From the NCBI RefSeq assembly GCF_003966565.1, contig NZ_AP018719.1, positions 62,001 to 126,000 of the forward strand: a DNA stretch of 64,000 bases, written 5' to 3'. The stretch comes from Sulfuricystis multivorans (GTDB taxonomy: Bacteria > Pseudomonadota > Gammaproteobacteria > Burkholderiales > Rhodocyclaceae). Every line of letters starts with the position of its first letter. Within the stretch, counting starts at the first letter, position 1. Below, in pieces: positions 34,696-57,785 of this stretch. The translations under genes and the position numbers were made by a program. The notes beneath the pieces were generated by a model. That model did not search any database, was not told the origin of the DNA, and worked only from the letters and a program-made list of their open reading frames with translations.

Positions 34696-34744
34696 CAATG
34701 CAGAAATGCAGCCGAAAAAGTGGAGTTAGGTGCAGTTTTGGATT
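34696..34744 (-). promoter_or_regulatory. Activator box 1, in front of the lipoprotein-traF-traH-traG operon
   Basis: Read on the minus strand the 49-bp box carries AATCCAAAACTGCACCTAAC, then TCCACTTTTTCGGCTGCATT and TCTGCATTG. It is the most divergent of four copies but keeps the CACCTAA, TTTTTCGGC and CATTTCTGCATTG blocks. It lies 33 bp upstream of the start codon. Confidence 0.75.
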
Positions 34745-34837
34745 CCCGCCCTTAGGGAAACACTGAAAAAGTCGTCGTATCCAGCCGGAGAGCAAGACGC
34801 TCAGAGCGCAGGATGCGAGACAATTCGGTTGCACCGG

Positions 34838-35293
34838 CTACTGTTGCGCTGCTGGCTGCTGAATCGGAGAACCCAGATCTGGCTTGAGGCCAGAGTCCTT
34901 CACCATCCTCTCTTCTAACTCGTATTCGCTATCTACTCCGGGCGGCAAGCCATTTTGGCACATGTTCAACTTGACGCTCATGTCAAGCATACGGGTTGAA
35001 CCATCCGTCATGGGTAACAAGGTACCAGGAGTGTAGTAGCGAATGTTGAACCGCTTGCACCCCTCCTGCTTCAGGTTGGCTACAGTGGTCACCTCGGCAA
35101 CTACTCGGGCATTCGGACGATTGATCTGTTGGCGGATCATCTCGGCGGTTCTCCCTGTCACCTCCACCGAGGCTTTGCCATCTTTGGCGTTCATGGCCTT
35201 CATCAGCAGATCACGGTAATCGGTTCCGTCTCCGGCGGCGAAGGTCATCGCCGGCAAGAGCGCGAGCAGGCTAACAATACCTTTAGCGTTCAA
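34838..35293 (-). CDS. Periplasmic hypothetical protein, 151 residues
   Basis: A signal peptide (MNAKGIVSLLALLPAMTFAA) is followed by a small soluble domain with SVEVTGRTAEMIRQQINRPN, VANLKQEGCKRFNIRYYTPG and two cysteines. It overlaps the preceding gene by 4 bases and is the last gene of the traW operon. No family recognised. Confidence 0.6.
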   Translation of the reverse strand: MNAKGIVSLLALLPAMTFAAGDGTDYRDLLMKAMNAKDGKASVEVTGRTAEMIRQQINRPNARVVAEVTTVANLKQEGCKRFNIRYYTPGTLLPMTDGSTRMLDMSVKLNMCQNGLPPGVDSEYELEERMVKDSGLKPDLGSPIQQPAAQQ

Positions 35294-36021
35294 GACTCAT
35301 TGCTCCCTTGGACTGCTGCTGGCTTTTTCACGTCATAGAACGGCTTCAGGACATTTTCAATGGCGTCGCTAATAACCATGTCAAGAACTACCTTGGAGTC
35401 CTGTGCCTTTTCCATTATCCACCAGTGTCCGCTGTCGCCGTTGACACTCAATATGACGGAACTGGTGAATTTGTTGCATTGGTCGCCATAACAAAACCCA
35501 CGGGGATCGCCGGTGAGCAGTTCATTGAAGCGACCCGCGATTCCGGTCTTCTGGCCAATCCATCGAACCATGTCAGTGACGGACAGCATAGATGCCACGC
35601 CTGTGGCGGCTACAGACACGCCAATCTGCAGCAGATCCACGTTCTGATGGTGATAGTCTGGATTGCTGGGTTGAGCGACGCCAACAGCGGACTCCAACAA
35701 CTCTCCAAGCCTACCGCGAACTTCCTCTTTGCCAGCACCGGAAATTAGGAATATGCCGTCGAAATTGAACTTCGCATCGGCATCTTCCAGCTTCTCAGCT
35801 ACGGTGAAGCCCATCGCCCTCATTTTTTCTTGGAGGATGCGTGTCATCTTCGGGCTGTGTTTGAAAGAAACGTACAGACGCTTTTCTGCAATTCCGGCAT
35901 TTGGCAGGGAATTGAAATGCGGTTCGCGCTCGATCTCGACGCTCGTCGTGGAACCAGTATCTGCCAGAACCACAACTGCTGAAGTCGCAAGAGTCAAAGC
36001 AAGAATGAATTTACGGACCAT
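35290..36021 (-). CDS. Periplasmic protein, second copy of a TraN-partner family
   Basis: ATG at 36021 (MVRKFILALTLATSAVVVLA) opens a signal peptide; the start overlaps the traN end by 11 bases. The 243-residue protein has RLYVSFKHSPKMTRILQEKM followed by GFTVAEKLEDADAKFNFDGI, matching AGAVYAQFVGSPSITDTIRR and GFAVAWNKADAKQYLTLKGS of the 37900 gene. Both also share a C(x3-4)C element and a conserved C-terminal beta region. Each follows a TraN-type gene, so they look like paralogous partners. One hydrophobic segment (IGVSVAATGVASMLSV) is present in this copy. Function unknown. Confidence 0.65.
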   Translation of the reverse strand: MVRKFILALTLATSAVVVLADTGSTTSVEIEREPHFNSLPNAGIAEKRLYVSFKHSPKMTRILQEKMRAMGFTVAEKLEDADAKFNFDGIFLISGAGKEEVRGRLGELLESAVGVAQPSNPDYHHQNVDLLQIGVSVAATGVASMLSVTDMVRWIGQKTGIAGRFNELLTGDPRGFCYGDQCNKFTSSVILSVNGDSGHWWIMEKAQDSKVVLDMVISDAIENVLKPFYDVKKPAAVQGSNES

Positions 36022-37903
36022 AGTAACTCGCAGCTTTTTGTTGCAACCGCTCGACTGCATAGGTATTTGTCTTAGGGTCGGGTTGGATGCTGTTGAAGAA
36101 TTCTGACAGATCCATCTCGTCGAATTTCAGAAGCTTGAGCTCTTCCAGGGTAAAGCCCGAGCAATCCGGATTTTGCGCCGATCCCCAGCTCTTGCCGATC
36201 TGAGCACGACCTTGTTCATTGACGATACGACCGAGCTTTGAGGGGAAGCAGCACCATCCCTCTTTTTTCTCAACACATACCCCCAGAACTTTAGAACTGC
36301 AGTATGAACCAACCTGGTGGCATAATCCCTGCCCTCGCTTCATCCCCAGGATTTGATCCTGTTGATCGCAGCTCATCATATCCATAATGACGTAAATGGC
36401 AATAGAGGTTGCGAGAGACCATGGGTCAAATCCGACATAACTAATTCCGCCTGCGGTCGAGATTGAAAACTCTGCGCCCCAGATAGAGAACGTGCTCGAT
36501 GTACTCAGGAGGTTGCCAGCGGCCTGTAAAGCGTATTCCTGAAGAATTTCGCTGCCAGTAGCCATCAAACCTTCGAAGATGTATTTGGAACCCCAGACGT
36601 AGATTTCTTCTGTGCCCACTTTGAAAACGGCCGTGCCGATCGCCTGGGCGATCACATCGTTCCTGCCGCCTTGACCTCCCCCTTTGGCTTTACAGCAGTT
36701 CTTTAGTAATTTTTTGGTGCAAGACTGCGACTCTCCATCGAAGATGTTGTAGTTGGTGGCTTCTCTGGCAAGCTCCATTTGCGAGATCGTCGCGGCGAAA
36801 TCCCTATCGGCGGGATGACCAGTATCGAAACACTGGCCATCCAGGCAGAAAGACTGGGTTCCACAGTCTGTCTGGGTGGAGGTGGAAACCGGCGCTTCAG
36901 CGCATTTGTACTGGTGCTCAAGTAATCCACACTGGCCTCCGGGCAAAGTATCAACGCAAGTCGATCCAGTTTCGACGCAAAGAGGATCGTTCTTTAGTTC
37001 ATCGCAGGTCGAGGTGAGGTTTGTAGAAGCGCAGGTGTAATCTTTCTTCCATTGCCAGCAGTCTTTGTAGACGTCCAGGCCATTAATATTTTTTGTTCCT
37101 GGGCCATCTACACAGGTTTGGGAAGCAACAGTGCAGTTCGGATTGTTGTCGAGCGACGTGCATTGCGACACATCTACCTGGTCATTGACGATCGTGTACG
37201 AGGTGTTGAGATATTGAACGTTCGTCGGAAGCGGCGTGATTTCCGAGCCGCAAAGATAGGTGAACTGCTTTTCGATGCAAACGCCAGTAAAGGCGACATT
37301 CGTACAGATTTCCGTCTGTTGCGTACATCCGGCTTGCTTCAGGGGCATGCAATAGTCGGCCGGGTTGCTGACCACGCAGTTGTAGTCCTCCTTCCACTGC
37401 CAGCAGTCCTTGTAGACATCGAGGCCGTTGATATTCTTTGTGGCGGGGCCATCGATACATATCTTAGCCGAGAGTTGGCAGCTTGGATTACTGGAGTAAC
37501 TGGCGCATGGGGATGTGTCGATCGTGTCCGAGACGATCGTATAGCTATTGCCCAGTTGAATGACCCCATTCCCCACTTGCGCAGCATTGTCGCAATGGTA
37601 GGTCTTCGTATAGCCGAGGCATGTCCCATTGAATGCAGTTCCGTTGCAGACTGAACTAACTTGGGAGCATCCAGGCGTGGCAGCGATGGCCGCACAGTAA
37701 TCGACCGGGTTGGGATCGACGCAGTTGTAAGTTGCTTGATAATCCCAGCAGTCGCGATAGATCATCGTACCGCCAATGTTTTTAGAACTGGGCCCATCCA
37801 CACATACCTCGCCCGTCTTTTGGCAGGTAGCAACTGCGTTGGCTCCTGTCGAGAAGGTAACAGCCACTAGGACCGACAGGATGTATCGGAAAATATTGTT
37901 CAT
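36011..37903 (-). CDS. traN: TraN, cysteine-rich mating-pair stabilisation protein
   Basis: A signal peptide (MNNIFRYILSVLVAVTFSTG, ANA) precedes three tandem units of about 85 residues, each with CxDGPxTKNINGLDVYKDCW and a closing CxxxxxxYxC pattern. In F and its relatives TraN carries the 'DGP...DCW' blocks. The C-terminal 250 residues hold KKLLKNCCKAKGGGQGG and a hydrophobic stretch, also TraN-like. The protein is exported to the outer membrane, where it contacts the recipient. The three units are close copies in DNA and protein. Compared with SXT-type TraN the N-terminal third seems to be missing and is coded separately at 38613. Confidence 0.9.
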   Translation of the reverse strand: MNNIFRYILSVLVAVTFSTGANAVATCQKTGEVCVDGPSSKNIGGTMIYRDCWDYQATYNCVDPNPVDYCAAIAATPGCSQVSSVCNGTAFNGTCLGYTKTYHCDNAAQVGNGVIQLGNSYTIVSDTIDTSPCASYSSNPSCQLSAKICIDGPATKNINGLDVYKDCWQWKEDYNCVVSNPADYCMPLKQAGCTQQTEICTNVAFTGVCIEKQFTYLCGSEITPLPTNVQYLNTSYTIVNDQVDVSQCTSLDNNPNCTVASQTCVDGPGTKNINGLDVYKDCWQWKKDYTCASTNLTSTCDELKNDPLCVETGSTCVDTLPGGQCGLLEHQYKCAEAPVSTSTQTDCGTQSFCLDGQCFDTGHPADRDFAATISQMELAREATNYNIFDGESQSCTKKLLKNCCKAKGGGQGGRNDVIAQAIGTAVFKVGTEEIYVWGSKYIFEGLMATGSEILQEYALQAAGNLLSTSSTFSIWGAEFSISTAGGISYVGFDPWSLATSIAIYVIMDMMSCDQQDQILGMKRGQGLCHQVGSYCSSKVLGVCVEKKEGWCCFPSKLGRIVNEQGRAQIGKSWGSAQNPDCSGFTLEELKLLKFDEMDLSEFFNSIQPDPKTNTYAVERLQQKAASYYGP

Positions 37904-38613
37904 CTCCCACCTCGGACCATGTCCATGGCGAGATACAACGCTCGGACGGTAAGTACATTCATGTTCACAAATTTGTCTTTCATCGAAGCAATCACTTTGC
38001 CCTTCTCCGTCCGCCCGTTTTTCGTGACCTCGATATCAATAATTGTCTGCTGTGTAATGATTTGTGCAACACGGCATCTTTCGGGGGGACATGAAGGATC
38101 GTTACCGATGCCCTTCTCAAACATGCGTTTGGAAAACCACCGTCCTTGATCCCCGAGATCAACGGGAATTGGGTTTCCCGTAACCAGGGATATGCCTTGT
38201 TGGGTATTAGGCTGCTGCCCGTGATCACCGATGGTGTAATGCCCTTCCGGAACATGGGCTGGAGTAGGCTTTTCCTTCACCGGGACAGACAAGGCCACTC
38301 GCTGGCCTTCCGCGATGGCGGCGATATCTTCCTGGGCAGCTTTGCCATTTGAAGACTTAATGCTCAAACTGCCCTTCAGAGTCAGGTATTGCTTCGCATC
38401 TGCCTTGTTCCACGCCACAGCAAAACCATGTGCGGCTAAATCACGGCGTATCGTATCCGTGATGGACGGGCTACCGACAAACTGAGCATAGACGGCACCA
38501 GCTTCGGGCCTAAGCGTAGCCACGCCCTCAACGCGACTTTCGATTCGGCCCAAATCCCCTGCAATCGCTAATGCAGCCAAGAAAGAGACCGCTATTCCAA
38601 TAATTATTCTCAT
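37900..38613 (-). CDS. Periplasmic protein, first copy of a TraN-partner family
   Basis: Signal peptide MRIIIGIAVSFLAALAIAGD, then a domain with VYAQFVGSPSITDTIRRDLA and VALSVPVKEKPTPAHVPEGH. It contains CPPERC and a C-terminal beta-rich stretch (IIDIEVTKNGRTEKGKVIAS). It resembles the 35290 protein. It overlaps traN (4 bases) and shares its boundary base with the upstream TraN-like gene. Function unknown; context suggests that it helps TraN fold, anchor or be exported. Confidence 0.65.
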   Translation of the reverse strand: MRIIIGIAVSFLAALAIAGDLGRIESRVEGVATLRPEAGAVYAQFVGSPSITDTIRRDLAAHGFAVAWNKADAKQYLTLKGSLSIKSSNGKAAQEDIAAIAEGQRVALSVPVKEKPTPAHVPEGHYTIGDHGQQPNTQQGISLVTGNPIPVDLGDQGRWFSKRMFEKGIGNDPSCPPERCRVAQIITQQTIIDIEVTKNGRTEKGKVIASMKDKFVNMNVLTVRALYLAMDMVRGGR

Positions 38614-39785
38614 CAGTACGTCCTACTGTTTAGCGTTGCGCACTGGTCGTTCCAGACATCGGTGTATGTAACCTGAGTGGGGAGGGAGAAGTTCGCTGAC
38701 CCGTAATACGAAAAGCCCAGGCACGGGTTGTAGAACCAGGAGCCCATAGTGCAAGTCGTAGCGTTACAGGTTTGGCTGTAGTAGGTTATGAAGCAGTACC
38801 CAGCTCCGGTATTCATATTGGTAATACCCTGGGTTTGCGGGATGTAGGCCCCAGGCGTTCCGGGAATGTTTGCCCAACCTAAGTCTACGTAGAATTGGTT
38901 GGTTCCGTGCACCTGCGTGTAGAAGTGCTGCTGGTAGTACCCGTTCTGGCAGTAGTAGTCGTATACCAGGTAATCGATGCAGTAAGGGCAGGGGTCGGCG
39001 ATTACTCTGACGATAAAGGCGCCCGGCGTACATCCTGGGATCGTGTTGATCTGGATGTTCAGCGTCTTATGGCAGGTGTGGGTATTGGTTTGATATTCGA
39101 TTTTCGTGCACTGGTAGTTGTAATCTACATCAACCACAACCACATCGCCGTAGGTACAGGTTCCGTGGTTGATGGTGGAGATGGTTTCCTTACAACTGTA
39201 GAGGTAGTCAGGATCGACGACGACGTTCTGACCTATTGTGCATGAGGCGGCCCCGTTTTCCGACCAGTCATCACATGTTTGCATGACAAAGTCTGGCGTT
39301 GAGGCTTGCTGTGTGGTAGTACAGTTCGAGTAATTTCCGTTAATCGCCCCAGCAATGGCTTCTGGATTAGCTGCGATCGCCTTACCCTGCAGCATGAGCG
39401 GGTCGCTGCGGGTAATTTGACTGTTCGCATTGAAAGACTGTGCATTAACTAATGAATTGACTGCCTCACAATGTTCCTTGTCTGCCGGATTCGTCGATGA
39501 CGTGCCTGCGCCGCATTCAGAAATCTTGGCTTGGCCTCCAAAATACAGTGAGTTCAATACTGTGTTTTGCCCTCCATAATAGGCAGATTGCGGCGGCGGT
39601 ATTTGGGAGTAGCCGCTGACCACGTTACCCGCTTGGGAATGACCAATGTTGTTGAAGATGTCTTGTGTGTGAGTGTTATCTCCAGCCGCTTTACCGTCCG
39701 CAAAAGCGGCCATCTGCTCTGGCGTTTGTGCGTAGGCAATTCCAAAAGATATTGCCAATGCCACGATTAGGGAACGGATGATCAT
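38613..39785 (-). CDS. Second TraN-like, cysteine-rich secreted protein
   Basis: ATG at 39785 overlaps the trbC stop (ATGA); the frame to 39857 is not needed. Signal peptide MIIRSLIVALAISFGIAYAQ. The 390-residue protein has many cysteines with patterns such as YSCKETISTINHGTCTYGDV, YQCTKIEYQTNTHTCHKTLN and a Tyr-rich C-terminus (YYSQTCNATTCTMGSWFYNP). The 'YxC...C...CxKTL' rhythm recalls the N-terminal region of larger TraN proteins from R391-type elements. It may be a split TraN half or a second adhesin. It heads a TraN-like/partner pair that is repeated downstream. Confidence 0.65.
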   Translation of the reverse strand: MIIRSLIVALAISFGIAYAQTPEQMAAFADGKAAGDNTHTQDIFNNIGHSQAGNVVSGYSQIPPPQSAYYGGQNTVLNSLYFGGQAKISECGAGTSSTNPADKEHCEAVNSLVNAQSFNANSQITRSDPLMLQGKAIAANPEAIAGAINGNYSNCTTTQQASTPDFVMQTCDDWSENGAASCTIGQNVVVDPDYLYSCKETISTINHGTCTYGDVVVVDVDYNYQCTKIEYQTNTHTCHKTLNIQINTIPGCTPGAFIVRVIADPCPYCIDYLVYDYYCQNGYYQQHFYTQVHGTNQFYVDLGWANIPGTPGAYIPQTQGITNMNTGAGYCFITYYSQTCNATTCTMGSWFYNPCLGFSYYGSANFSLPTQVTYTDVWNDQCATLNSRTY

Positions 39786-40474
39786 TGCCGAGTCCTTTCC
39801 AGACGCTGAAGGTAAATGTCGGCTTTCTCTCCGATCGGACCGCCTCGGCTCGACCACTGCTCCAAGGCGTACTCCAACGTGACATCGCCTGTGAGTGCGT
39901 ATGATTGGCTGTCACAGGTGTCTGAGGAACAGCCCTCTTCCTTGCTCGCAATTACAAACGTCGGAACGGCTTTGACGTTGTAGCGGGTGAAGGCCTCCGG
40001 GTCGATTTGAATTTGGGCACCCGTAGTGCCAACCGGCTGAAGGGCCTCCATCGTCTTCTGGATGGCCCCCCTGGTTCCCAGAGGTGCAACCAGACCGCGC
40101 ATGACCAGAACCGCACCAGTTGCCTTAGCCTGTTCCCCAAGCATGACCAGTGCTTTGGTAGGCATCGATGTCGAGATAAAGATCATCAGCTCCTGCTTTG
40201 CCGGCCCCTGTCCAACTCCAGATGCCTCGTACTTATTGGCGAGCGTCAACGGATCGACCCCTTTCATCTTTCGGACTTCCTCTACGCTCAGTCCTTGCTT
40301 ATGCCCTGTTTGCTTGTCGTTCTGCCGCATGGATTGAGCTTGGGCCATTGCGCGCTCGATAGCCTGCTGGGTGCGGAGGTAAGGATCTTGTTCCTGTGCC
40401 GAGGGGTTAATCTGTGCCAATGCAATTGCAGGGGGTATGGATAGCAGGGCAAGAGCTATTTGACGTTTCGTCAT
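39782..40474 (-). CDS. trbC: TrbC, F-type pilus assembly protein
   Basis: ATG at 40474 (MTKRQIALALLSIPPAIALA) starts a signal peptide; the longer frame to 40552 overlaps traU. The 230-residue protein has the TrbC_Ftype core: KQELMIFISTSMPTKALVML, VLVMRGLVAPLGTRGAIQKT, IQIDPEAFTRYNVKAVPTFV. The fold is thioredoxin-like without a CxxC. In F it works with TraW in the periplasm for pilus assembly and in some systems the two are fused. Gap to traU is 38 bases. Confidence 0.9.
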   Translation of the reverse strand: MTKRQIALALLSIPPAIALAQINPSAQEQDPYLRTQQAIERAMAQAQSMRQNDKQTGHKQGLSVEEVRKMKGVDPLTLANKYEASGVGQGPAKQELMIFISTSMPTKALVMLGEQAKATGAVLVMRGLVAPLGTRGAIQKTMEALQPVGTTGAQIQIDPEAFTRYNVKAVPTFVIASKEEGCSSDTCDSQSYALTGDVTLEYALEQWSSRGGPIGEKADIYLQRLERTRQ

Positions 40475-40512
40475 AGGTGTATATCGCAATATCAGGTGAC
40501 GGTTTAGGATGC

Positions 40513-41565
40513 TTACGGGGCCATGTAATTCAGCAAGTTTCCGGCGCAGCAATCCCTTTTCCGGAAGATTTGGTAGACGAAATCCTCGCCCTTAACCGGA
40601 AACTCTCTGCCTGACCCCCAGAGGGCGGTTGAACGCCCGAACGGCTGACAGCATTTCCCGGCGATTTTCTTGGTTTGAGGTATCGGGTAGAGCATCGTGT
40701 ATTTGTAGTCGGTTTTCTTCATTACTGGCTCAGGGTAATAGCCACACAAGCCGTCATCACCGGATGCTGCCCACATTAGAAGTTCTCGATGCAGTTTTGT
40801 GGCCATCCGCGCTGCGATGAGTGAAGAGGCCTGAACACCACCTACTTTCGAACCGACCCATCCGTCCAAAGGAAACATTGAGCCCTGGCAGCCATCACAC
40901 CAGAACAATTCATCACGCCCGAATCCGAATGCCGTGGCAGATACGCAGTCGAGCGCGCAGGCTGCTTGGGCTATAGGATTTCCCCACAACACAACGTCCG
41001 GATTGATGATGAAGGTCGATACGCTGTCAGACCACAACGGATCAATTTCAGTCAGGTATACGAGGTCAAATACACCTCTTTCAAGGCATTTGTCGTCCAG
41101 CAGCACCTCAAGCCAGAACATCAAGGGGTTGGTATACCAATGAGCGTGGTAAAACGCACTAGGGGAACGCGCTTCGCTCTTTCCTGTTTGTGCGTGTTTG
41201 GCTGTCTCAATACCAAAGTCCATACTGACGCCACCCATCCCGACGAAGCAGTAAGGTGTGCGTGTCACATCGACCATGCGTACTGGTTCCCAGAATCCCA
41301 TCTTCATGCCGATCTGCGGGGGGTCTGTGCAGGCACAAAACGGGTTGCTTGATGAGGCAAGACTAGACGTGTTTTCGTCTTGACCCATCGTGACTGCATT
41401 TGATCCGGCCAGCTTGATCGGAAAGGAGCAGGACCAACAGTAATCCGTGATCGGGTTGGCGAACGCGCCATGACAGTTCGGGTCAGCCATCACATGCAAG
41501 GAGAACGCCCCAGCCAGCAAAGCAGCGGTAGCAGCAATCATTCGTCGGTAGAACAAGAACATCAA
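40513..41565 (-). CDS. traU: TraU, F-type mating protein
   Basis: The 350-residue protein has a signal peptide (ATAALLAGAFSLHVMA) and the family hallmarks: DYCWSCSFPIKLAG, FCACTDPPQIGMKMGFWEPV, WYTNPLMFWLEVLLDDKCLE and SDSVSTFIINPDVVLWGNPI, then FWCDGCQGSMFPLDGWVG and CCQPFGRSTALWGSGREFPV. Cysteines are abundant, in line with dependence on DsbC. TraU is needed for DNA transfer more than for pilus extension. Starts 4 bases inside traW. Confidence 0.93.
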   Translation of the reverse strand: MMFLFYRRMIAATAALLAGAFSLHVMADPNCHGAFANPITDYCWSCSFPIKLAGSNAVTMGQDENTSSLASSSNPFCACTDPPQIGMKMGFWEPVRMVDVTRTPYCFVGMGGVSMDFGIETAKHAQTGKSEARSPSAFYHAHWYTNPLMFWLEVLLDDKCLERGVFDLVYLTEIDPLWSDSVSTFIINPDVVLWGNPIAQAACALDCVSATAFGFGRDELFWCDGCQGSMFPLDGWVGSKVGGVQASSLIAARMATKLHRELLMWAASGDDGLCGYYPEPVMKKTDYKYTMLYPIPQTKKIAGKCCQPFGRSTALWGSGREFPVKGEDFVYQIFRKRDCCAGNLLNYMAP

Positions 41566-42203
41566 TTCATCTCCAGCTCGTCAATTCGCAACCGTTTCCC
41601 TTCCTGGCTCACCAGTGAAGGAACGCGGATAATGCCCAGTTTGCGCACCAGCATTCCGCCTTGGTCGAAATAAACCTGAGTCTTCCATTGACGAGACATT
41701 TCTAGGGGCTGCCCATTGACCAAGACGGCCTTCATCTGGCCGTTGTATTGCTGCATCAAGGCCTCTGCTTTCTTCACTTGGGCAGGGTCGGTACCGTCGA
41801 AGAACAGCAAATTCTTCGGCAAGGTCACGTAGTCGAGTGGGTTGATAGTTTTTCCTGCTTCAGCGATCACGTTTCCGTTTGGATCCGTGATCGTTTTGGG
41901 GACCCGCACCGTTGGGTCCCAATAGAACACCCGCGCTTTTTCGACACGGGAGAGACCCTTAACGGGCTTAGGGTTCTCGATAGAGCGCTTCGCGCGGTCG
42001 ACAGCTTCCTTCTGCAACCGAGCTAACTCTCCGGACCTCTGCTTTTCTTTCAGGACCCGATAGATCTCTTGGAGCATGTCTGGTTCAACGATCGGATGTA
42101 CCGGGCCAATCTGCTCTGCGGCTTTACTTGGTATCACAACACCACAGGCGATAATCAGTGGAGTGAGTCGACGCAGCATGGAAGATATAAGGGGGATTTG
42201 CAT
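41562..42203 (-). CDS. traW: TraW, F-type pilus assembly protein
   Basis: The start is set at ATG 42203, preceded by GTG at 42206; ATG 42203 gives the same distance (32 bp) to the upstream activator box as the other tra operons. A signal peptide precedes a core with ARVFYWDPTVRVPKTITDPN, VIAEAGKTINPLDYVTLPKN and LLFFDGTDPAQVKKAEALM, typical TraW. The C-terminus has MSRQWKTQVYFDQGGMLVRK and IRVPSLVSQEGKRLRIDELE. It opens the traW-traU-trbC-TraN operon of eight genes. Periplasmic. Confidence 0.92.
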   Translation of the reverse strand: MQIPLISSMLRRLTPLIIACGVVIPSKAAEQIGPVHPIVEPDMLQEIYRVLKEKQRSGELARLQKEAVDRAKRSIENPKPVKGLSRVEKARVFYWDPTVRVPKTITDPNGNVIAEAGKTINPLDYVTLPKNLLFFDGTDPAQVKKAEALMQQYNGQMKAVLVNGQPLEMSRQWKTQVYFDQGGMLVRKLGIIRVPSLVSQEGKRLRIDELEMN

Positions 42204-42235
42204 CACGTTAAGATAACGAGCCCCCTTTGCTATGC

Positions 42236-49505: not shown

Positions 49506-50246
49506 TTAACGGGAGATCGGGGCAGCAGGAGTCGCCGCTGGCGTAACAGGAGCGGTTGGCGCTGGTGTCGCCGGTGAGTGGAAGGTTCCAGCCTGTTGTT
49601 GGACAGCTGGTACGTCTTGGGCCGGTTGCTGATACAGAGATTCAGTCTCAGCGGTGGGTGGAGCGTTGGGGGGATCAAACGGACGAACCGGGCTTGTCTC
49701 CCTCAACTCCTTGATAAAAGTACGGCTGCCGTCGTAGTCGAAGACAACGAGATAGGCTTTCACTTCATCACCAGGGACGCGCTTGTCTGCGATGAAGGTA
49801 GACTGGGTACCAATCAGAGCGACTGCCTGGTCTTTTTCGCTAATCCGCACTTCACGAGGCATGAAAATCTTGCTCATGTTCTCCTGCTTCAGACGATTTG
49901 CACCCATCTTGAAGCGAACGGCCAGCTCACCATTAACGGACGGGTGAACTAGCTTGAGGAGGACGGAATTCTGATAATCGATGGACTGAGGAGAAACGGT
50001 CGCGTACTGGGAAATTACCCAAGAACCCATCTGTTCGAGCCATTCAGGACCAATGTGTTTTCCATCGACCCAAAAGGTCTTGTTGATTTCAGGGGGCACG
50101 AGGATGGTCCGCACAGTGCGGTCCATCGTGAAGAAGGCTCCTGCCATAAACACGTTGGTCAGCAGGGAAGCAATCAAGATCATCTGGAAAGCCTTGGTAA
50201 CGCCTGCGCGGGCTTCCACATCTGCCATCAATTTTCTGAGTAACAT
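49506..50246 (-). CDS. traE: TraE, VirB8-like inner-membrane protein
   Basis: The protein has one N-terminal membrane helix (MILIASLLTNVFMAGAFFTM), then VRTILVPPEINKTFWVDGKH and a VirB8-like periplasmic domain (SPQSIDYQNSVLLKLVHPSV, IFMPREVRISEKDQAVALIG). The last 60 residues are a Pro/Ala/Gln-rich tail (PAPTAPVTPAATPAAPISR) not found in short TraE proteins. Gap of 10 bases to traK. Confidence 0.92.
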   Translation of the reverse strand: MLLRKLMADVEARAGVTKAFQMILIASLLTNVFMAGAFFTMDRTVRTILVPPEINKTFWVDGKHIGPEWLEQMGSWVISQYATVSPQSIDYQNSVLLKLVHPSVNGELAVRFKMGANRLKQENMSKIFMPREVRISEKDQAVALIGTQSTFIADKRVPGDEVKAYLVVFDYDGSRTFIKELRETSPVRPFDPPNAPPTAETESLYQQPAQDVPAVQQQAGTFHSPATPAPTAPVTPAATPAAPISR

Positions 50247-50279
50247 CAGTACAGTCTCGTCGTCTCGGTGTTGGGATAA

Positions 50280-50573
50280 TCAGCCGATGAATTCACGTAT
50301 GGCTGATGGAGGGGTGATACGAAACCCGAAACTGGTAGGCAAATACCAGTAAAGGGCATGAAGCCCAAAGGCACGACTACGCCCGGACTTCAATTTCTGG
50401 TAGGACAAGGCGATAACTACGCCCAGACCAGAGAATGTCAGGGTCTGGTTCGTCATGATTCCAATGACGACACAGCCCATGAAGAGGATCGCCACGTCGA
50501 AGTCCCACCACAAGAACTTGGGTGGATCATCCAGACGGTGCGGGATGATGTACTTGTGATCGATATCCGACAT
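50280..50573 (-). CDS. traL: TraL, VirB3-like inner-membrane protein
   Basis: The 97-residue protein has the TraL pattern: IIPHRLDDPPKFLWWDFDVA, one or two hydrophobic segments (ILFMGCVVIGIMTNQTLTFS, LGVVIALSYQKL) and the closing LHALYWYLPTSFG. It assists pilus tip formation. Follows the pilin gene by 37 bases. Confidence 0.92.
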   Translation of the reverse strand: MSDIDHKYIIPHRLDDPPKFLWWDFDVAILFMGCVVIGIMTNQTLTFSGLGVVIALSYQKLKSGRSRAFGLHALYWYLPTSFGFRITPPSAIREFIG

Positions 50574-50610
50574 GGCGATTGCTCTACGCTTGTGGCCTGC
50601 TACGGCTGAA

Positions 50611-50907
50611 TCAGATCAGCGCGGAAGCGATGCCGTCAATGATGCCTGGGCCGATGGCGAACAGCACGGCGAAGATGATGCCGATCAGAGCGGGCATCGC
50701 GGTGGACTTCGCAAAGCCGACAATGGCGCCCACCAAGAAAGCGGCGATAGCCAGAGTGCGACCCAGGTAGCCTTCAGACCAGCCCTTCACCAGGTTGTAC
50801 AGGCCGCCGAACTCGGTGCCGGTGGTGCCAGCAAAGGCCGGGGCAGCAAGAACGAGGGAGGAAGCGGTGAGGCTAACGCGGTTGAACATCTTGGAAAGCA
50901 GTTTCAT
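50611..50907 (-). CDS. traA: TraA, F-type pilin
   Basis: The start is ATG at 50907 (MKLLSKMFNRVSLTASSLVL), preceded by GCCAAGGACAAAGAC; the longer frame to 51105 belongs to a neighbour. After a signal peptide ending APAFA comes a short polar part (GTTGTEFGGLYNLVKGWSEG) and two hydrophobic helices (TLAIAAFLVGAIVGFAKSTA and LIGIIFAVLFAIGPGIIDGI). This is the arrangement of F-like pilins. The S26 peptidase at the end of the operon may do the processing. Confidence 0.88.
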   Translation of the reverse strand: MKLLSKMFNRVSLTASSLVLAAPAFAGTTGTEFGGLYNLVKGWSEGYLGRTLAIAAFLVGAIVGFAKSTAMPALIGIIFAVLFAIGPGIIDGIASALI

Positions 50908-50948
50908 GTCTTTGTCCTTGGCAAAAGTTGAAAGATAAAATTGGATTT

Positions 50949-50976
50949 GTCTCGTCGTCTCGTCGTCTCGTCGTCT
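50949..50976 (-). repeat. Short tandem repeat in the traA leader
   Basis: Three units of the 9-mer GTCTCGTC-G run across 50949-50976, read as GACGACGAGAC on the minus strand. It lies between the stop of the small RHH-like gene and the pilin start. A related TCTCGTCGTCTC occurs just upstream of the traE start (50253-50264). Function unknown. Confidence 0.6.
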
Positions 50977-50980
50977 GAAC

Positions 50981-51235
50981 TTATGCTTCTGTCTTGCTAT
51001 GGATATCGCGAACAACCACCTCACGCGTCCGAGCAAGCAAACGGTAGAGAGCTTCTTTGCTCTTTCCTGCGTCTTCGATAACCAGCTCAAGAGCTGCAGT
51101 TGCAAGACGGCGTTCTTGAAATAGGTCGCGATCAGGAAGAGTGGAGCGAAGATCGCGAAGCGCCTTTTTGGTCTCTTCCCTGACGAGGACTGCTTTGTAG
51201 CCGTACTCGTGGTTTCCAGTAGTCTGATTGTTCAT
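50981..51235 (-). CDS. Small RHH-like protein, 84 residues
   Basis: The product (NHEYGYKAVLVREETKKALR, DLRSTLPDRDLFQERRLATA) has a strand followed by two helices with RLATAALELVI at the second helix, like Arc/TraY-type ribbon-helix-helix proteins. The position directly before the pilin gene fits a TraY-like regulator or oriT-binding protein, though this is only context. The start overlaps the OmpA-like gene by 4 bases. Confidence 0.5.
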   Translation of the reverse strand: MNNQTTGNHEYGYKAVLVREETKKALRDLRSTLPDRDLFQERRLATAALELVIEDAGKSKEALYRLLARTREVVVRDIHSKTEA

Positions 51236-51828
51236 TTGGTCGTGATCGTAATATCAATGTCTGTGCGTCTGAGTTCTTGCATGATCCTTTTTGAGGCACG
51301 CAAGTCACCATCACAGCAAGGGGCCTGGGCCACTGCCGTAATTGTTTCAACAGGAACCCCAGTCTTGACAAGCGCTGCCTTAACAGCCTGCGCACGCCGG
51401 ATGGCAAGTTTCTCGTTGAACTTGAGAGAGCCAGTCGGATCAGTTCGTCCTGCGACGACAATCGACTTGGCATTCTTGAGATGACCAGAGGAGATAATCT
51501 CGTCAACTTCTTTGAAACCGGAGGTGTCGAGGCGACCCCATCCCCAACGGAAATGCACTTTGAAGTGCACCTGCTTCGGCGTTTCAACAGCCTTAATGGA
51601 GGTAGGTGTTGAAGGTGGTGCTGGTGTTGGTGGTGCGGGCTTGGGGATAAATTTCGGAGTTCTCTGCGGGCAATTGTCTGTTTCGCAAAACACCAGTTCA
51701 GCGTTTTGCTTAGTGCCGACCTCGACGACTTCCAGCTTACTGTTTGGAGGCCGTTCGTCAGAGTTCTGAATGGAAGCGCAGGCCGACATCATCAGAGCCA
51801 GAGAGGCGCAGGACAATAACTTATTCAT
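51232..51828 (-). CDS. OmpA-like lipoprotein
   Basis: ATG at 51828 (MNKLLSCASLALMMSACASI) starts a lipoprotein signal peptide with lipobox MSAC. A Pro-rich linker (PAPPTPAPPSTPTS) separates it from an OmpA C-terminal domain with AKSIVVAGRTDPTGSLKFNE and KLAIRRAQAVKAALVKTGVP, which binds peptidoglycan. It overlaps the transglycosylase gene by 8 bases. It probably anchors the transfer machinery to the cell wall; gene order suggests co-function with the transglycosylase. Confidence 0.8.
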   Translation of the reverse strand: MNKLLSCASLALMMSACASIQNSDERPPNSKLEVVEVGTKQNAELVFCETDNCPQRTPKFIPKPAPPTPAPPSTPTSIKAVETPKQVHFKVHFRWGWGRLDTSGFKEVDEIISSGHLKNAKSIVVAGRTDPTGSLKFNEKLAIRRAQAVKAALVKTGVPVETITAVAQAPCCDGDLRASKRIMQELRRTDIDITITTK

Positions 51829-52522
51829 CGTCACGCACCTCTTCATAATTCAGGAAGCCGCCGCCAACAGAGAACGCCTGGAGATCGTCTTCCCCAGATG
51901 CTGTCGCGAGCTTCATGGACTGGTCGGACTCTCCGAGCTTTACGACCATGATCTTCTTCGGCTGAATAGCAGCGCTTGCGCTGTGAATCGGCATGTTGGC
52001 AGCTGCAGTAGCAACCTGGCCATAGGCTGAGGCAGCTAACACTTGAGTCGGCGCATCGATGTCACCACCTTTTTTCAGTGCTGCGTGGATCTTCCAGGCA
52101 TATTGATTGCGGCGGCGAACGCACTCGGCTTTGTCCAGCTTGGCGCAGCCCACGTTGTAGGCGCCAATCGCATTCCAGTTCCAGCCAAGCTTCTTGGCGT
52201 TGTTGGACAGAATCCATGCGCCGACTTTGACATTCGTGCATGCGTCCTTCAGGGACTCTTCCGTAACGCCGTACTTCTCGAGTTTAGGCAGCCAACTCGA
52301 ATTGATCTGCATGATACCGACATCATATGTCCCATCACTGTTGACGTTGCGAGCATTTGCATTGAAGCCACTCTCTGTTTTCGCAACTGCCTTAAGCACC
52401 TCAACCGGGATGCCATAGCTCTCGCTAGCAGCCTCCCAGCACGTTGCCCTTGCGACCATGGGTACTGTAACGGCCAGCCCACAAAGTGTGATCAACAGGT
52501 ATTTTGGGGTTGCGTTCTGCAT
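51821..52522 (-). CDS. Lytic transglycosylase (VirB1/TraL-type)
   Basis: The start is set at ATG 52522 (MQNATPKYLLITLCGLAVTV), which gives the common 33-bp distance to the activator box; the ORF start at 52546 is closer. After the signal peptide the SLT domain reads CWEAASESYGIPVEVLKAVA, KTESGFNANARNVNSDGTYD and VGIMQINSSWLPKLEKYG, with the catalytic glutamate in KTESG. It cuts peptidoglycan to make room for the secretion channel. It is the first gene of the traA-L-E-K-B-V-C operon. Confidence 0.9.
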   Translation of the reverse strand: MQNATPKYLLITLCGLAVTVPMVARATCWEAASESYGIPVEVLKAVAKTESGFNANARNVNSDGTYDVGIMQINSSWLPKLEKYGVTEESLKDACTNVKVGAWILSNNAKKLGWNWNAIGAYNVGCAKLDKAECVRRRNQYAWKIHAALKKGGDIDAPTQVLAASAYGQVATAAANMPIHSASAAIQPKKIMVVKLGESDQSMKLATASGEDDLQAFSVGGGFLNYEEVRDDE

Positions 52523-52555
52523 GGGCCAAATCTTGCCGGCTGACAAGAAAATCTA

Positions 52556-52604
52556 CAATGCAGAAATGCCGCCGTTTTGATGGGGTTAGGTGTAGAAATG
52601 GATT
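52556..52604 (-). promoter_or_regulatory. Activator box 3, in front of the pilin/core-complex operon
   Basis: Minus strand, in pieces: AATCCATTTCTACACCTAAC, CCCATCAAAACGGCGGCATT, TCTGCATTG. The outer CATTTCTAC and CATTTCTGC elements and GGCGGC are kept; the middle T-run is replaced by AAAA. It lies 33 bp from the ATG at 52522. Confidence 0.85.
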
Positions 52605-53253: not shown

Positions 53254-53778
53254 CTACTGTGAGGGGCTCATGTGAAGCAAGCTCAGGTAATCAAGTCCAG
53301 CTACCTCGAGATCCTTTGTAGGACTGATAGCTGCCAGAAGCTTGATCATCACTGTGCTGGAAGCGACTGGAGTATCACGCTCTCGGATTTGTATCGCGTA
53401 GCGCTTATGGTTGGCAAGGTATCGCATCAAGGGCTCATCGTAGGTCCAGACTGACCAAAGTCCATCCTTGCCCTCAACAGACACGCGAATAGACGAAAGT
53501 GCCTTAGCACTTGCGGCGATTCGCTCGATGAACTTCCTGTGGCTTACTTCATAGCCTAAGAGCAATGTTTCGTCATAGGAAGCAATCGCATCCCGCAGCG
53601 TCTGTTCCGCAAGGTTCTCGCCATTCACGACCAGCCATGGTGACACGAAATAGATGAACTGGAACGCCACATGCTCCAGGGTAGGCCAATCAGTGAACGC
53701 CTTCACCGGGCCGGATGAGAATCCGGCGCTACTTAGAATTCTGTTGAGGCTTAATCTCACGAGGGTGTTAGCGTTCAT
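53254..53778 (-). CDS. Hypothetical protein of the traI-traD operon, 174 residues
   Basis: It overlaps traD by 4 bases and precedes the DUF4400 gene by 10. The sequence has LNRILSSAGFSSGPVKAFTD, FIYFVSPWLVVNGENLAEQT and LKLLAAISPTKDL-like IKLLAAISPTKDLEVAGLDY; it is soluble with no signal peptide. No family recognised, though its position is the one usually taken by a small unnamed gene in SXT-type traID operons. Confidence 0.6.
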   Translation of the reverse strand: MNANTLVRLSLNRILSSAGFSSGPVKAFTDWPTLEHVAFQFIYFVSPWLVVNGENLAEQTLRDAIASYDETLLLGYEVSHRKFIERIAASAKALSSIRVSVEGKDGLWSVWTYDEPLMRYLANHKRYAIQIRERDTPVASSTVMIKLLAAISPTKDLEVAGLDYLSLLHMSPSQ

Positions 53779-55700
53779 GCTTCTTCATGTGAAATGATTG
53801 GCAGACGGCCCTTGATAAGTCTGCCGCCTGAAACCATTGCGATGTATTGCCAGTTTGGCAGTTGCCCAAGTACGTCCGGCGGCAGAACATCTTCCAGAGC
53901 TTCAGTTACTCTCTCCTGTACAGAGCCGGTGAAATGTGTGATCGTCTTTTCTGTCGAAGAAGACGTCGCATGGATCTTCTGTTGCGTATAGACGTAGGTC
54001 TGACCAAAGGTTTCCGTAACGAAATCTTGAGTAACCCTGTCCTTGATTCGCATGGAAACGAGATTATTGAAGTTCCCGAGCATCTGTCTAGCCTTGTCCA
54101 TCGACTCGAACCGCGCAGCCAGGTCAGGAATCGTTTGGATGGCTGCCAGATTGATGAAGCCGGCACCGGCAGACTTGTTCAGCATTTGGATGTACGGATC
54201 GTTGACCACCTCTGCAGCCTCATCGACGATGAGGAATACCTTGTGGTTTCCGCCGTAGTTGTAAAAAGCTGCAGCAACCGAAGTTAGGTCCGATAGCAAC
54301 ATCGAGCCGACCGCAGAGCTGATTGTCTTATTTGCCAACGAATCCAGGCCAATGCTCACTACGCTGTTGGCGCGAATCAGCGAAGCTAGGTCTGTCATCG
54401 GCCGAGTATCTGCAACATCTCGCGGGTCAGGAGAAAGTAGATCTCCGAGCTCTCCGGTAGTGAGCATCCCCAGAATCGGCACAAGGTTTGCAATCATCTT
54501 GGTGTAGTGAGCGCTGTCATGCTTGTAGATGGTTGCCAAGGCCTCAATAGCTTCGTCTCGTATGCCACGCGGAACGATCATGTCCAGATAAAATTCCAGG
54601 AGAAGATTGAGAGACTGACGCACAAGGATCTCGCCATCTTCTTGCCCCTTCTTCCCCTTCACTTGCTTGAGCGTTCGCGCATACGCCGCCACTTCGGTTT
54701 CCCAATTCGGCTGTAGCTCCTCGTCGAAGAACTGAAGAATGACACGCATCAAGAGATCGGCAATCCCGTTGTCCACGTAGGAGCGAATGCGCACAAGTGA
54801 CGGCTTTTCGCCCGTTGCTAGCATGCCCATCACGATGGCGTTCAGCACCCCCCACGCAAAGTCTCGGAAGGAAGAAGACTTGTCCCCACCAGGCATCAGC
54901 GCGGCGATTCGCGATGCCAAGTCGCTTGGATTCGTATAGTTTTTCAATGGATCAATACGGGCGCTCTGCCCAGGGAATGCAAGATGGAATCTGACATAAT
55001 CATGTTCCCGGCCCGCCTGTTTGCACGCCGCACGCAGGGAGGCATCAAAGGGCTGGTCTCCCTTTGGATCAATGCAGATGACGGTGTAGCCAAGTTCGAT
55101 CGCCATTTCAGCAATGAGCTCTAAGAAGCGAGTCTTTCCGCACCGGGTTGTCCCGACCAGGAGGGTGTTACCTATTAAGTTCTGAATTGGCACATACAGA
55201 TCGTCCTCAGATCCATTCAGGCCGTGTATCCACGGGGCGCCAATATATTCAGTAGTATTTGCGCCCACCTGCTCACCGCTCCATTGTTCGATCATCCACA
55301 TGATCATCTTCGGTGGATAGAACTGTTCCGGGTCGGCCCGCTTGATTTCGTACACCCGCTGGGTATGAACCGGGGTCCAGTCGAAGCCCTTCCCAAACCA
55401 AAGCGCCCGCGAGTTTTCCTGCCCTTCTACGCTGGTGACTTTGGTTTTCAGTTCCTCGTCAGTGATGAAGCTGATGCCCTTACCACCCAGACTCCATTTG
55501 AGTCGCCAAATCTCCCATGCCCGAAGTAGGTTGAAGATCATGAAAACAAGAGCAGTCGCCCCAAGGTAGTAGAAGGGAAGGTCAGGGAAAGATGTGGTGT
55601 ACCATGCGTATGTCAGTCCTATCACGCAAAGGAACCACACGGCTGCAGAATAAGCCTCGTAGGCCTTCCGCCACGGCATTTCGAATTGGCGAAGAAGCAT
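53775..55700 (-). CDS. traD: TraD coupling protein (SXT-type VirD4)
   Basis: The 641-residue protein has two N-terminal membrane helices (AVWFLCVIGLTYAWYTTSFP and FYYLGATALVFMIFNLLRAW), a QFYPPKMIMWMIEQWSGEQV region, Walker A LLVGTTRCGKTRFLELIAEM near residue 183 and Walker B KVFLIVDEAAEVVNDPYIQM near residue 493. This is the SXT/R391 TraD subfamily of type IV coupling ATPases. It brings the relaxosome to the channel. Lies 5 bases after traI. Confidence 0.95.
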   Translation of the reverse strand: MLLRQFEMPWRKAYEAYSAAVWFLCVIGLTYAWYTTSFPDLPFYYLGATALVFMIFNLLRAWEIWRLKWSLGGKGISFITDEELKTKVTSVEGQENSRALWFGKGFDWTPVHTQRVYEIKRADPEQFYPPKMIMWMIEQWSGEQVGANTTEYIGAPWIHGLNGSEDDLYVPIQNLIGNTLLVGTTRCGKTRFLELIAEMAIELGYTVICIDPKGDQPFDASLRAACKQAGREHDYVRFHLAFPGQSARIDPLKNYTNPSDLASRIAALMPGGDKSSSFRDFAWGVLNAIVMGMLATGEKPSLVRIRSYVDNGIADLLMRVILQFFDEELQPNWETEVAAYARTLKQVKGKKGQEDGEILVRQSLNLLLEFYLDMIVPRGIRDEAIEALATIYKHDSAHYTKMIANLVPILGMLTTGELGDLLSPDPRDVADTRPMTDLASLIRANSVVSIGLDSLANKTISSAVGSMLLSDLTSVAAAFYNYGGNHKVFLIVDEAAEVVNDPYIQMLNKSAGAGFINLAAIQTIPDLAARFESMDKARQMLGNFNNLVSMRIKDRVTQDFVTETFGQTYVYTQQKIHATSSSTEKTITHFTGSVQERVTEALEDVLPPDVLGQLPNWQYIAMVSGGRLIKGRLPIISHEEA

Positions 55701-55705
55701 ATTTG

Positions 55706-57703
55706 TTATTCCTTGGGGGGGGTCATATCGAAGCCGAGGCTAGAAGCGATCTCTGGCTTCAGAATAATCATTCTGTGCGTCTTCCCATTGATCTCGACTG
55801 GATGAATTCGGCGACTTGCTCTGGTCTTGTCTTGCCAAAGCCACGCCTTCAGGCCAAGCTCTTCGAGAAGTTCCATCACAGGAATTCCGTGCCGGTTTAG
55901 TTCTTCGTGGCTAATTCCAAAGCCGTAAGGCAAAGCTGCAGTCACGCCGCTCATAGTTCCATTGCGATAGGCCTGCATAACCTCATTCAGCAGCCACGCA
56001 TTCGTGCGCTTTAGAGACCCGAGTAGCTTTGCAGCTGTTGGGCTCACGTCAGCTCCAAGCGAGGCGCCGCTGTCGCTTTCCTGATCTGGGTATCGTTGAC
56101 TCTTTGCTTGAACATCTTTCCCGGTGCCGCCATCCTTCTCTTCTTCTGCACTGATCCTGGGTTTCTTACGATTCGAGCTTTTAGGGGTTGCTGTCGCCGG
56201 CAGTTCCTTGTTTCCTTCAGGAAGAGGCTCGTTGCTTTGCACGCGGGACAGAATCTCTGCGGGCGGTGGCGCATTCAGTTCCTGCTTCGGCGCAGTCCAC
56301 AGCTTTTCATTTGCTGTACCGGCCGGAACATCCATTCCTGAAGGAGTATTCAGCGCAGAGGCATGAGCTATCGAAGCCTGCGTTGTACCGTTTGCCGCTG
56401 GAGCTGCTTGCTGATTCGCCTGAACCGTCGAAGTTGGCGAGAGTGCAAGTTGGATGTTCTTGTAAGGTTCGAAGTCGAAGCCCCGGGGGAAGATCACCTC
56501 TCCCTCTCGCAGCTTTACCATGCCCTCCTTCGCCTCGAATGTTCCCGGCAAAGCGATCGTCCAGTACCGAGAGCCGCTTTCGTTCAGCTGAAGAAGATTT
56601 GCGGATACCAGAAGGTCTGCCAAGGTATCCGGGTCTTTCGGGATGCCAGCAAACGAATCTCGAGCCAACAGGTTCGCTATGTCAGACGCTGCGACTGACC
56701 AGTCGATGTAAACGCCTTCCTTCCCCACCCAAAGACGACCACCTGATGCGACGTTGTTTGCGATCCACTTACCTCCTCGGACAAGGCGCCGCATTGCATC
56801 GACCAGGTGCATTTCAAGGTGGGTTCCGATTACCAAGTGCCCATAGTTCGTGGCGGACCGCTTCAAATCGTCCTCGATCACCCGGGTGATCACTGGAGCA
56901 ACCAGTCGACCGATCGGGTTCTCGGATGTATTGGTTTCGACACCAGCGATCGTTGCGGTCATTGCCGGTACTATTTGATTATTGTCGCTGGCGAGATACT
57001 CTAGAACGTCATGGGGGACTACTTGAGAAATTGAATACGCAGATGATGCTTGGGCACCGTGAACGTGCGTATCTTCCATCCAGCGGACAAAATAGACGTC
57101 TGCTTTCGTATTCGTGCACCATTGGAAAAGGGAGTGCAGGAGCGGAGACCACTGTTGGTTGTCCCTCGTCATAACCGCCATCGAATTGACTGTGCGGTAG
57201 TTCTGGCTGCATAGACCTGCTAGGAAGGTGGCCAACGTCCACTTTGGTTGCATGAAAAATCTGCGCTCAACCCCTCCTCCGGTGGGAAAGACTGCTGCAT
57301 TGGCTGATTGCAGCGAATTCAGTGCGATTTCGAGACTCATGCGGAAAAGCCCACCAGTTCCGCGGAAATAGGTAGTGCTCGTTGCCGGTAGTAAATGCAC
57401 GTGCTCCGCCATATTTCGTACGGCCGGCATGTAGAGGCGGTTGAAGTCGGCACGCGAGACGCCGGCGGTGCGGAAGATGCGGTCCAGCAACTCTTGTTGC
57501 GATTGCAGGATTTTCTCTACGGGGATGACAGGTATGCCTTTGTCGAATGGAGGATAGCGTGTTATCGCATAGTCGCCTGGATCCTCTTCGCCCGGATAGA
57601 CGTCCAAGCCGATCCCACGGGACTGGAGTTTCTGCGGGATCAACAATGGAGCAGATTGTTGCGTTGGAGTACGAGTCAGCAGACGGCGGATAAACTTGAG
57701 CAT
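55706..57703 (-). CDS. traI: TraI, MobH-family relaxase-like protein lacking canonical HD residues
   Basis: The 665-residue protein matches the TraI_2/TraI_2_C (MobH) family: YPGEEDPGDYAITRYPPFDK-type opening, MAEHVHLLPATSTT, GGLFRMSLEIALNSLQSANA, QWSPLLHSLFQWCTNTKADV and YFVRWMEDTHVHG, plus a C-terminal domain (LLNEVMQAYRNGTMSGVTAA, MELLEELGLKAWLWQD). In relatives the first blocks read roughly 'HHH...GGLLRHxLEVA' and 'LLHDxGK'. Here TYF (111-113), M122 and LCSQNYR (164-170) stand at those places, so the metal-binding histidines and the HD pair look lost. It either does not nick DNA itself or uses other residues. The start, 33 bp from box 4, has no good ribosome-binding site. Confidence 0.85.
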   Translation of the reverse strand: MLKFIRRLLTRTPTQQSAPLLIPQKLQSRGIGLDVYPGEEDPGDYAITRYPPFDKGIPVIPVEKILQSQQELLDRIFRTAGVSRADFNRLYMPAVRNMAEHVHLLPATSTTYFRGTGGLFRMSLEIALNSLQSANAAVFPTGGGVERRFFMQPKWTLATFLAGLCSQNYRTVNSMAVMTRDNQQWSPLLHSLFQWCTNTKADVYFVRWMEDTHVHGAQASSAYSISQVVPHDVLEYLASDNNQIVPAMTATIAGVETNTSENPIGRLVAPVITRVIEDDLKRSATNYGHLVIGTHLEMHLVDAMRRLVRGGKWIANNVASGGRLWVGKEGVYIDWSVAASDIANLLARDSFAGIPKDPDTLADLLVSANLLQLNESGSRYWTIALPGTFEAKEGMVKLREGEVIFPRGFDFEPYKNIQLALSPTSTVQANQQAAPAANGTTQASIAHASALNTPSGMDVPAGTANEKLWTAPKQELNAPPPAEILSRVQSNEPLPEGNKELPATATPKSSNRKKPRISAEEEKDGGTGKDVQAKSQRYPDQESDSGASLGADVSPTAAKLLGSLKRTNAWLLNEVMQAYRNGTMSGVTAALPYGFGISHEELNRHGIPVMELLEELGLKAWLWQDKTRASRRIHPVEINGKTHRMIILKPEIASSLGFDMTPPKE

Positions 57704-57736
57704 GTCCGGAATTATCCGGAGCGGCTCAGAAAGACG

Positions 57737-57785
57737 CAGCAGAGAAATGCCGCCGAAAATGCGGGACTAGGCGTAGGAATGGGCG
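57737..57785 (-). promoter_or_regulatory. Activator box 4, in front of the traI-traD operon
   Basis: Minus strand, in pieces: CGCCCATTCCTACGCCTAGT, CCCGCATTTTCGGCGGCATT, TCTCTGCTG. It agrees with box 2 over most of its length and lies 33 bp from the traI ATG at 57703, right after the FlhC-like gene. Confidence 0.85.

Follow-up and report, generated by a model that had tools for sequence, protein, structure and literature searches.

A repeated 49-bp box as the putative operator of an FlhDC-like transfer regulon on a plasmid of Sulfuricystis multivorans

Introduction

In Escherichia coli, the consensus FlhDC box is an inverted repeat of 42–44 bp (PMC9962212). Among the FlhDC-like regulators of mobile elements, AcaCD leaves a footprint of ~40 bp, the downstream edge of which lies 31 bp before the start (PMC4605294), and its promoters lack a clear -35 element, their -10 element lying 22–24 bp past the site (PMC5058578); the parMRC genes of IncC plasmids appear to be part of its regulon (PMC10954446). 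The 19-bp SetCD motif lies at or just upstream of -35 regions that have no recognizable consensus (PMC4344509), and BisDC of ICEclc has a 27-bp motif that is common to co-regulated transfer promoters (PMC7423338, PMC9286271). Poulin-Laprade et al. pointed to further FlhCD-like regulators on mobile elements, the motifs of which are presumably unrelated, and expected such motifs to reveal new families of mobilizable islands (PMC4542580). Here we describe a 49-bp box that recurs before the tra operons and other genes in a stretch of 64,000 nucleotides (the window) taken from a 149,340-bp plasmid of Sulfuricystis multivorans (contig C2, positions 62001-126000). Besides C2, the genome (2.8 Mb in total) has a chromosome of 2.56 Mb and a second plasmid, C3, of 102.6 kb.

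Judged from the sequence, the boxes very probably serve as operator for an FlhDC-like class II activator that the plasmid itself encodes and that would switch at least ten transcription units on together. A first-pass annotation of the window had proposed a conjugation regulon operator on the basis of four copies, a reading that gains support from the promoter-linked copies reported below and from a placement relative to the predicted start that matches those of FlhDC and AcaCD. Text searches of the open-licence literature returned no paper that deals with the box motif or with how this plasmid family regulates its transfer, and both the box and its presumed activator appear to be undescribed.

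Boxes on plasmid C2

The four boxes reported initially (34696, 42236, 52556 and 57737) are each 49 bp long and share a single orientation, and they lie 33, 32, 33 and 33 bp from the chosen ATG, as claimed. With a 33-bp core pattern and up to three mismatches, the window yields these four tra boxes only, and 100 shuffles yield none. A weight matrix built from the four boxes alone was used to scan C2, C3 and pAZI09, the nearest sequenced plasmid (from Azospira sp. I09), and added six C2 sites that score 20.6–47, against a best C2 background of 10.2. The family is therefore larger than had been described, with ten members on the plasmid, two of the additional ones in the window, and it is not confined to tra operons, as boxes also precede non-tra genes. 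The boxes of the window are as follows.

57737-57785, minus strand: box 1, before the traI-traD operon; -35 CTG; -10 GATAAT at 57711-57716; ATG at 57703; pAZI09 orthologue at 279417
52556-52604, minus strand: box 2, before the slt-traA/L/E/K/B/V/C operon; -35 TTG; -10 CAAGAT at 52530-52535; ATG at 52522; pAZI09 orthologue at 274241
42236-42284, minus strand: box 3, before the traW-traU-trbC-traN operon; -35 TTG; -10 TATCTT at 42210-42215; ATG at 42203; pAZI09 orthologue at 263824
34696-34744, minus strand: box 4, before the orf398-traF-traH-traG operon; -35 TTG; -10 TATCCT at 34669-34674; ATG at 34662; pAZI09 orthologue at 257044
20122-20170, plus strand: box 5 (new), before an actin-like PRTRC-D gene; -10 GACAAT at 20191-20196; pAZI09 orthologue at 239700
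8756-8804, minus strand: box 6 (new), before an ERCC4/helix-hairpin-helix nuclease-like open reading frame (ORF) at 8026-8715; -10 GATAAT at 8730-8735

The four C2 boxes outside the window precede genes for a rhomboid protease, ParA, a 274-amino-acid protein and a 63-amino-acid ORF. Box 6 (C2 position 70756) is the weakest of the six additional sites, and its score of 20.6 falls inside the range reached by shuffled sequence (maximum 23.1 in 20 shuffles). We accepted it despite this score because its orthologues on pAZI09 (213043) and in the metagenome-assembled genome (MAG) G400 (C70, 17725) precede the same gene, and because it has a -10 element.

A motif search of the whole replicon, as proposed in the first-pass annotation, recovered the ten C2 boxes, every one with a -10-like element. 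The many copies without a promoter link that would have spoken against an operator were not encountered: the six additional C2 boxes, the 13 on pAZI09 and the ten in MAGs all have a -10-like element at a fixed distance. A sequence profile built from 23 boxes, its training set including the ten of C2, finds those ten at E values of 1e-12 to 1.2e-7 and nothing else better than E = 0.09 in the whole 2.8-Mb genome. Plasmid C3 has no box (best score with the four-box matrix, 14.0), nor does the chromosome have any in the profile scan, in which hitch-hiking islands were considered. This restriction to the plasmid is read directly from the genome sequence.

The tra operons behind boxes 1–4 are the following, with some gene names in the box 2 operon assigned by position in pAZI09.

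53775-57703, minus strand: traI (MobH relaxase, 55706-57703) and traD (SXT type, 53775-55700), behind box 1
42333-52546, minus strand: mating-pair operon with slt, traL, traE, traK, traB, dsbC, traV, traC and a signal peptidase gene, behind box 2
34838-42206, minus strand: traW, traU, trbC and traN region, behind box 3
27840-34662, minus strand: orf398, traF, traH and traG, behind box 4

TraD belongs to the SXT subfamily (TIGR03743), and the actin-like product of the box 5 gene is PRTRC_D, above the cut-off of TIGR03739. The putative regulon would thus comprise at least ten C2 transcription units, namely the four tra operons and six others: a parA operon, PRTRC-D, the rhomboid protease, the ERCC4-type nuclease, and two genes that are small or unknown.

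The traN-like ORF (36011-37903) contains three repeats of ~85 nucleotides at 37030-37804, spaced at 345 bp, which suggests a tandemly repeated protein domain.

Box sequence and promoter geometry

The conserved unit spans about bases 2–49 of the 49-bp box and has sharp edges, with a mean information content of 1.08 bits per position inside the box and 0.06 upstream. Its total of ~50 bits over 49 bp is high enough for whole-genome searches with almost no false matches. Mean pairwise identity among the ten C2 boxes is 63% within the box and 25–27% in the flanks; between C2 and pAZI09 orthologues, it is 83% in the box, 93% in the -10 zone, 70% in the spacer and 56% in the upstream flank. The CATTTCTAC-like elements described in the first pass are real, the CATTTC-like elements forming direct repeats 32 bp apart, whereas the CATTTTCGG described between them is present in two of the four reported boxes and lacking from the other two. 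The operator proper is most likely ~46–47 bp long (bases ~1–46), with bases 47–49 providing the TTG of a -35 element.

Downstream, a hexamer of the form xAxxxT begins 19–21 bp past the box in 33 of 33 cases, and exactly 20 bp past it in 22; in 2000 permutations, xAxxxT occurred at that offset in at most 17 of the 33. These 33 boxes come from C2 (10), pAZI09 (13), a Rhodocyclaceae MAG (9) and a Dechloromonas MAG (1), and counts over them overstate the independent evidence because orthologous boxes share descent. The ten C2 boxes taken alone obey the same rule, and the -10 element was not among the criteria by which boxes were found. The -10 hexamers are GATAAT-like, with A at position 2 and T at position 6 in all 33 and T at position 1 in only four. 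Box bases 47, 48 and 49 are T, T and G in 28, 25 and 30 of the 33, respectively, and this TTG stands 16–18 bp (mostly 17) from the -10 element, which is sigma70 promoter spacing; beyond the TTG, the -35 element is not conserved. Given the fixed -10 offset and the TTG spacing, we interpret the box as an operator of ~46 bp that abuts the -35 element of weak sigma70-type promoters. On geometry only, this operator shared by the tra promoters suggests a class II layout, as in FlhDC, AcaCD and SetCD.

When +1 is placed seven bases past the -10 T, transcription is predicted to start ~32–33 bp past the box, which would then cover about -81 to -33. In all four tra operons, both on C2 and on pAZI09, the predicted start falls within 0–1 base of the ATG of the first gene, and these ATGs have no clear ribosome-binding site. 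Because predicted starts and ATGs coincide, the tra mRNAs may be leaderless. Other box genes, such as PRTRC-D and the 63-amino-acid ORF, have their ATG at 51–54 bp, with a GAGAGG or GAAAGG site; for PRTRC-D the likely ATG is at 20225, with GAGAGG. An alternative in-frame ATG of traW at 56 bp is possible, and the pAZI09 annotation starts there. A bolder combination, in which an FlhDC-like complex reads the two CATTTC-like half-sites, in the same orientation, as a direct repeat and drives leaderless transfer mRNAs with the start codon as transcription start, strikes us as conceivable but doubtful.

The -10 element of traI sits in a short palindrome, CCGGATAATTCCGG (57707-57720), which is kept in pAZI09 and to which a second regulator may bind.

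The FlhDC-like pair

Just upstream of traI lie the genes for the presumed activator, its promoter and a two-component system.

57797-58441, minus strand: 214-amino-acid FlhC-like subunit of the presumed activator, Cys4 motif kept, just upstream of traI
58452-58904, minus strand: 150-amino-acid FlhD-like subunit of the presumed activator, immediately upstream of the FlhC-like gene
58989-59018, minus strand: near-consensus sigma70 promoter of the activator operon, TTGACA-18-AATAAT, 11/12 matches
59345-60004, plus strand: response regulator of the LuxR/NarL type, encoded divergently to the activator operon and conserved in pAZI09
59976-60920, minus strand: its histidine kinase partner, conserved in pAZI09

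For the FlhC-like subunit, profile and fold both agree with the first-pass assignment. The protein scores 26 bits against PF05280, 1 bit below the cut-off of 27, and has a weak match to DUF2857; its family profile matches solved FlhC chains in the PDB at E = 4e-8. Structure models of both proteins were predicted from alignments without the pAZI09 proteins, and the FlhC-like model (predicted local distance difference test score, 89) has template-modelling scores of 0.84–0.86 to FlhC of Cupriavidus and E. coli (8j56/2avu). The FlhD-like protein has no Pfam match; profile (best PDB match FlhD 8j56, E = 0.0036) and fold both rank FlhD first, as the first-pass annotation had it, although the fold E values are weak. 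Homologues of the FlhD-like protein elsewhere also precede FlhC-like genes, so the gene order is kept, and the element that encodes the pair also bears a MOBH relaxase and type-F transfer genes.

The profile search found no box upstream of the C2 activator operon; by inspection of the alignment, the pAZI09 operon has a similar promoter and likewise no box. Plasmid C3 has another FlhC-like gene (G000:C3:52524-52964, 43 bits) yet no box.

Distribution

Beyond C2, the boxes are found on pAZI09, where the four-box matrix alone recovers 13 boxes with scores of at least 34, ten of them orthologous to the ten of C2. An exact-pattern scan of 84,980 genomes found, one chance match aside, only the Rhodocyclaceae MAG (nine boxes over three contigs, with DNA similarity to C2 of 65–78%) and the Dechloromonas MAG. 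Among 399 genomes of the same order, only the S. multivorans genome itself matched, apart from one stray partial match. Matches in a Patescibacteria MAG and in G044 were dismissed as chance, since L074 and L062 score below 12 with the profile.

When the FlhC-like protein was searched for directly, neither the 84,980 genomes nor IMG/VR gave a close relative, and PLSDB returned pAZI09 only. Relatives with 33–36% identity occur on other Burkholderiales contigs in different contexts, some adjoining ParA genes, and without a box.

Other repeats and gene sets

A second repeat, unrelated to the box, is ~70 nucleotides long with the core GTTTTCCCGAGTGATCGGAAACGC..TGGTCTGCGTTATGACCTGC. Three related plasmids carry it, in each case ~50–95 nucleotides ahead of ORFs.

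Window, minus strand: 14162-14233 and 15232-15303; elsewhere on C2: 57442, 59077 and 59692
pAZI09: 159620, 161268, 161885, 231808, 233496 and 234367
G400 C70: 425, 1490 and 2294

Two hairpins are predicted for it (12 pairs, four with compensatory changes), and the Rfam search of the window returned no match; it is a candidate for a new cis-regulatory RNA or a palindromic operator. Separately, pAZI09 carries a type IV CRISPR-associated set, csf1-csf5 (NZ_AP021845, 5374-11263).

Proposed mechanism and alternatives

We infer that the FlhDC-like pair binds the box and acts as an activator. A near-consensus promoter of its own would drive expression of the pair, perhaps subject to the adjacent two-component system, and the pair would assemble into a large heteromer that binds the ~46 bp upstream of, and touching, the TTG-only -35 element. 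The bound complex would recruit sigma70 RNA polymerase, and the poor -10 element 16–18 bp onward would be melted. In this way the tra operons, the parA operon, PRTRC-D, the rhomboid protease, the ERCC4-type nuclease and the two small or unknown genes would be switched on jointly, with tra transcripts that start on the ATG and would be leaderless. Several observations weigh against this scheme. The traI box (57737) has CTG instead of TTG at -35, and the box lacks the clean inverted-repeat structure of FlhDC boxes. Box and activator are found together in two complete plasmids only (C2 and pAZI09), and the MAG bins lack the tra region and activator although they contain boxes. The top seven Foldseek matches of the FlhD-like model are all FlhD, but at E values of 0.5–1. 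Finally, the neighbouring divergent response regulator is an alternative DNA-binding protein.

That response regulator (59345-60004) might itself bind the boxes, with the FlhDC-like pair as a second tier or unrelated; the kinase and regulator genes adjoin the activator operon and are conserved along with the boxes in pAZI09. We regard this as improbable, as a contiguous site of ~46 bp and fixed length that abuts the -35 element in 33 promoters suits a large heteromer better than a response regulator. LuxR/NarL-type regulators usually bind inverted repeats of ~16–20 bp. Furthermore, tra genes of the same type are governed by FlhDC-like pairs in IncC and SXT elements (PMC4207636, PMC4344509). 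The overlap of the box with -35, a classic position for repression, would also suit a repressor that silences the tra promoters, but these promoters are poor (-10 first T in 4 of 33; last three -35 bases unconserved) and look activator-dependent, in contrast to the promoter that drives the activator pair, with its 11/12 matches; nor was a conserved gene for a repressor identified, and we consider repression quite improbable.

Transfer could instead be coupled with motility through the flagellar FlhDC of the host, a bona fide copy of which is encoded on the chromosome, and there is a possible resemblance between an FlhDC half-site and the end of the box nearest the promoter. This is highly improbable: the chromosome has no boxes anywhere, and hence none at flagellar operons, and the plasmid FlhC-like protein is only 20% identical to host FlhC, so different sites are expected. 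Several copies per plasmid might also be expected of dispersed repeats or RNA leader elements with no operator role. We find this scarcely credible, given the -10 distance fixed in 33 of 33 cases, the sharp conservation edges and the lack of mobile-element terminal repeats; the boxes also lie upstream of the predicted start, and hence outside the transcript. Together with an Rfam search of the window that gave no match, this led us to reject an RNA element.

Comparison with known systems

The proposed FlhDC-like system of C2 recalls AcaCD of IncA/C plasmids, which is likewise a plasmid-encoded FlhDC-like pair with MOBH/type-F tra operons, a class II layout and a weak or absent -35 element (PMC4207636). 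The sites are unrelated, however: AcaCD has the core GCCCAAAATGGGC in a ~28-bp site, compared with the ~46-bp site on C2. The resemblance to the AcaCD motif that the first-pass annotation saw in the box centre is no better than chance (core GCCCAAAATGGGC, p = 0.12), and on this result we rejected a similarity to the AcaCD core. Control differs too, as AcaCD is under Acr1, Acr2 and AcaB, whereas the C2 pair adjoins a two-component system. SetCD of SXT/R391 elements shares an FlhDC-like pair and a class II layout, and C2 has a TraD of the SXT subfamily, but SetCD has a 19-bp motif, which could match one part of the 46-bp box at most, and is under SOS control through SetR; no SetR-like repressor was identified on the plasmid, though no systematic search was made.

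With FlhDC of E. coli, the C2 system has in common a similar site length, a presumed binding position ~30 bp ahead of the start, the FlhC fold and a possible resemblance in the proximal half-site, whereas the CATTTC-like elements of C2 are repeated directly at a distance of 32 bp and nothing in the distal half matches. The best match of a 15-bp half-site variant, CGCTATTT-N2-SCRTT, falls at box bases 34–48, the promoter-proximal end (p = 0.0035, uncorrected, with seven variants tried). For the inverted repeat AAYGSSNNAAATAGCG-N10-12-CGCTATTTNNSSCRTT, the N10 and N11 palindromes are not significant, nor is the published 16-bp half-site, and N12 gives p = 0.017. We regard the half-site resemblance as suggestive only. 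BisDC resembles the C2 pair in its FlhC-like subunit (DUF2857) and in one motif shared among transfer promoters; it differs in its 27-bp motif, in BisD, which is ParB-like rather than FlhD-like, and in the autoactivation of its operon, as the C2 activator operon has no box.

The partition-type genes of the putative C2 regulon parallel parMRC of IncC and srpMRC of SXT (PMC10954446), which again suggests that FlhDC-like activators couple transfer with such genes. The C2 box would be a motif of the kind predicted for further FlhCD-like regulators (PMC4542580), and it makes a betaproteobacterial plasmid family without described transfer regulation directly testable. Set beside these systems, the kind of activator and the promoter logic are known, and what would be new on C2 are the operator, the wider regulon and, possibly, a leaderless output.

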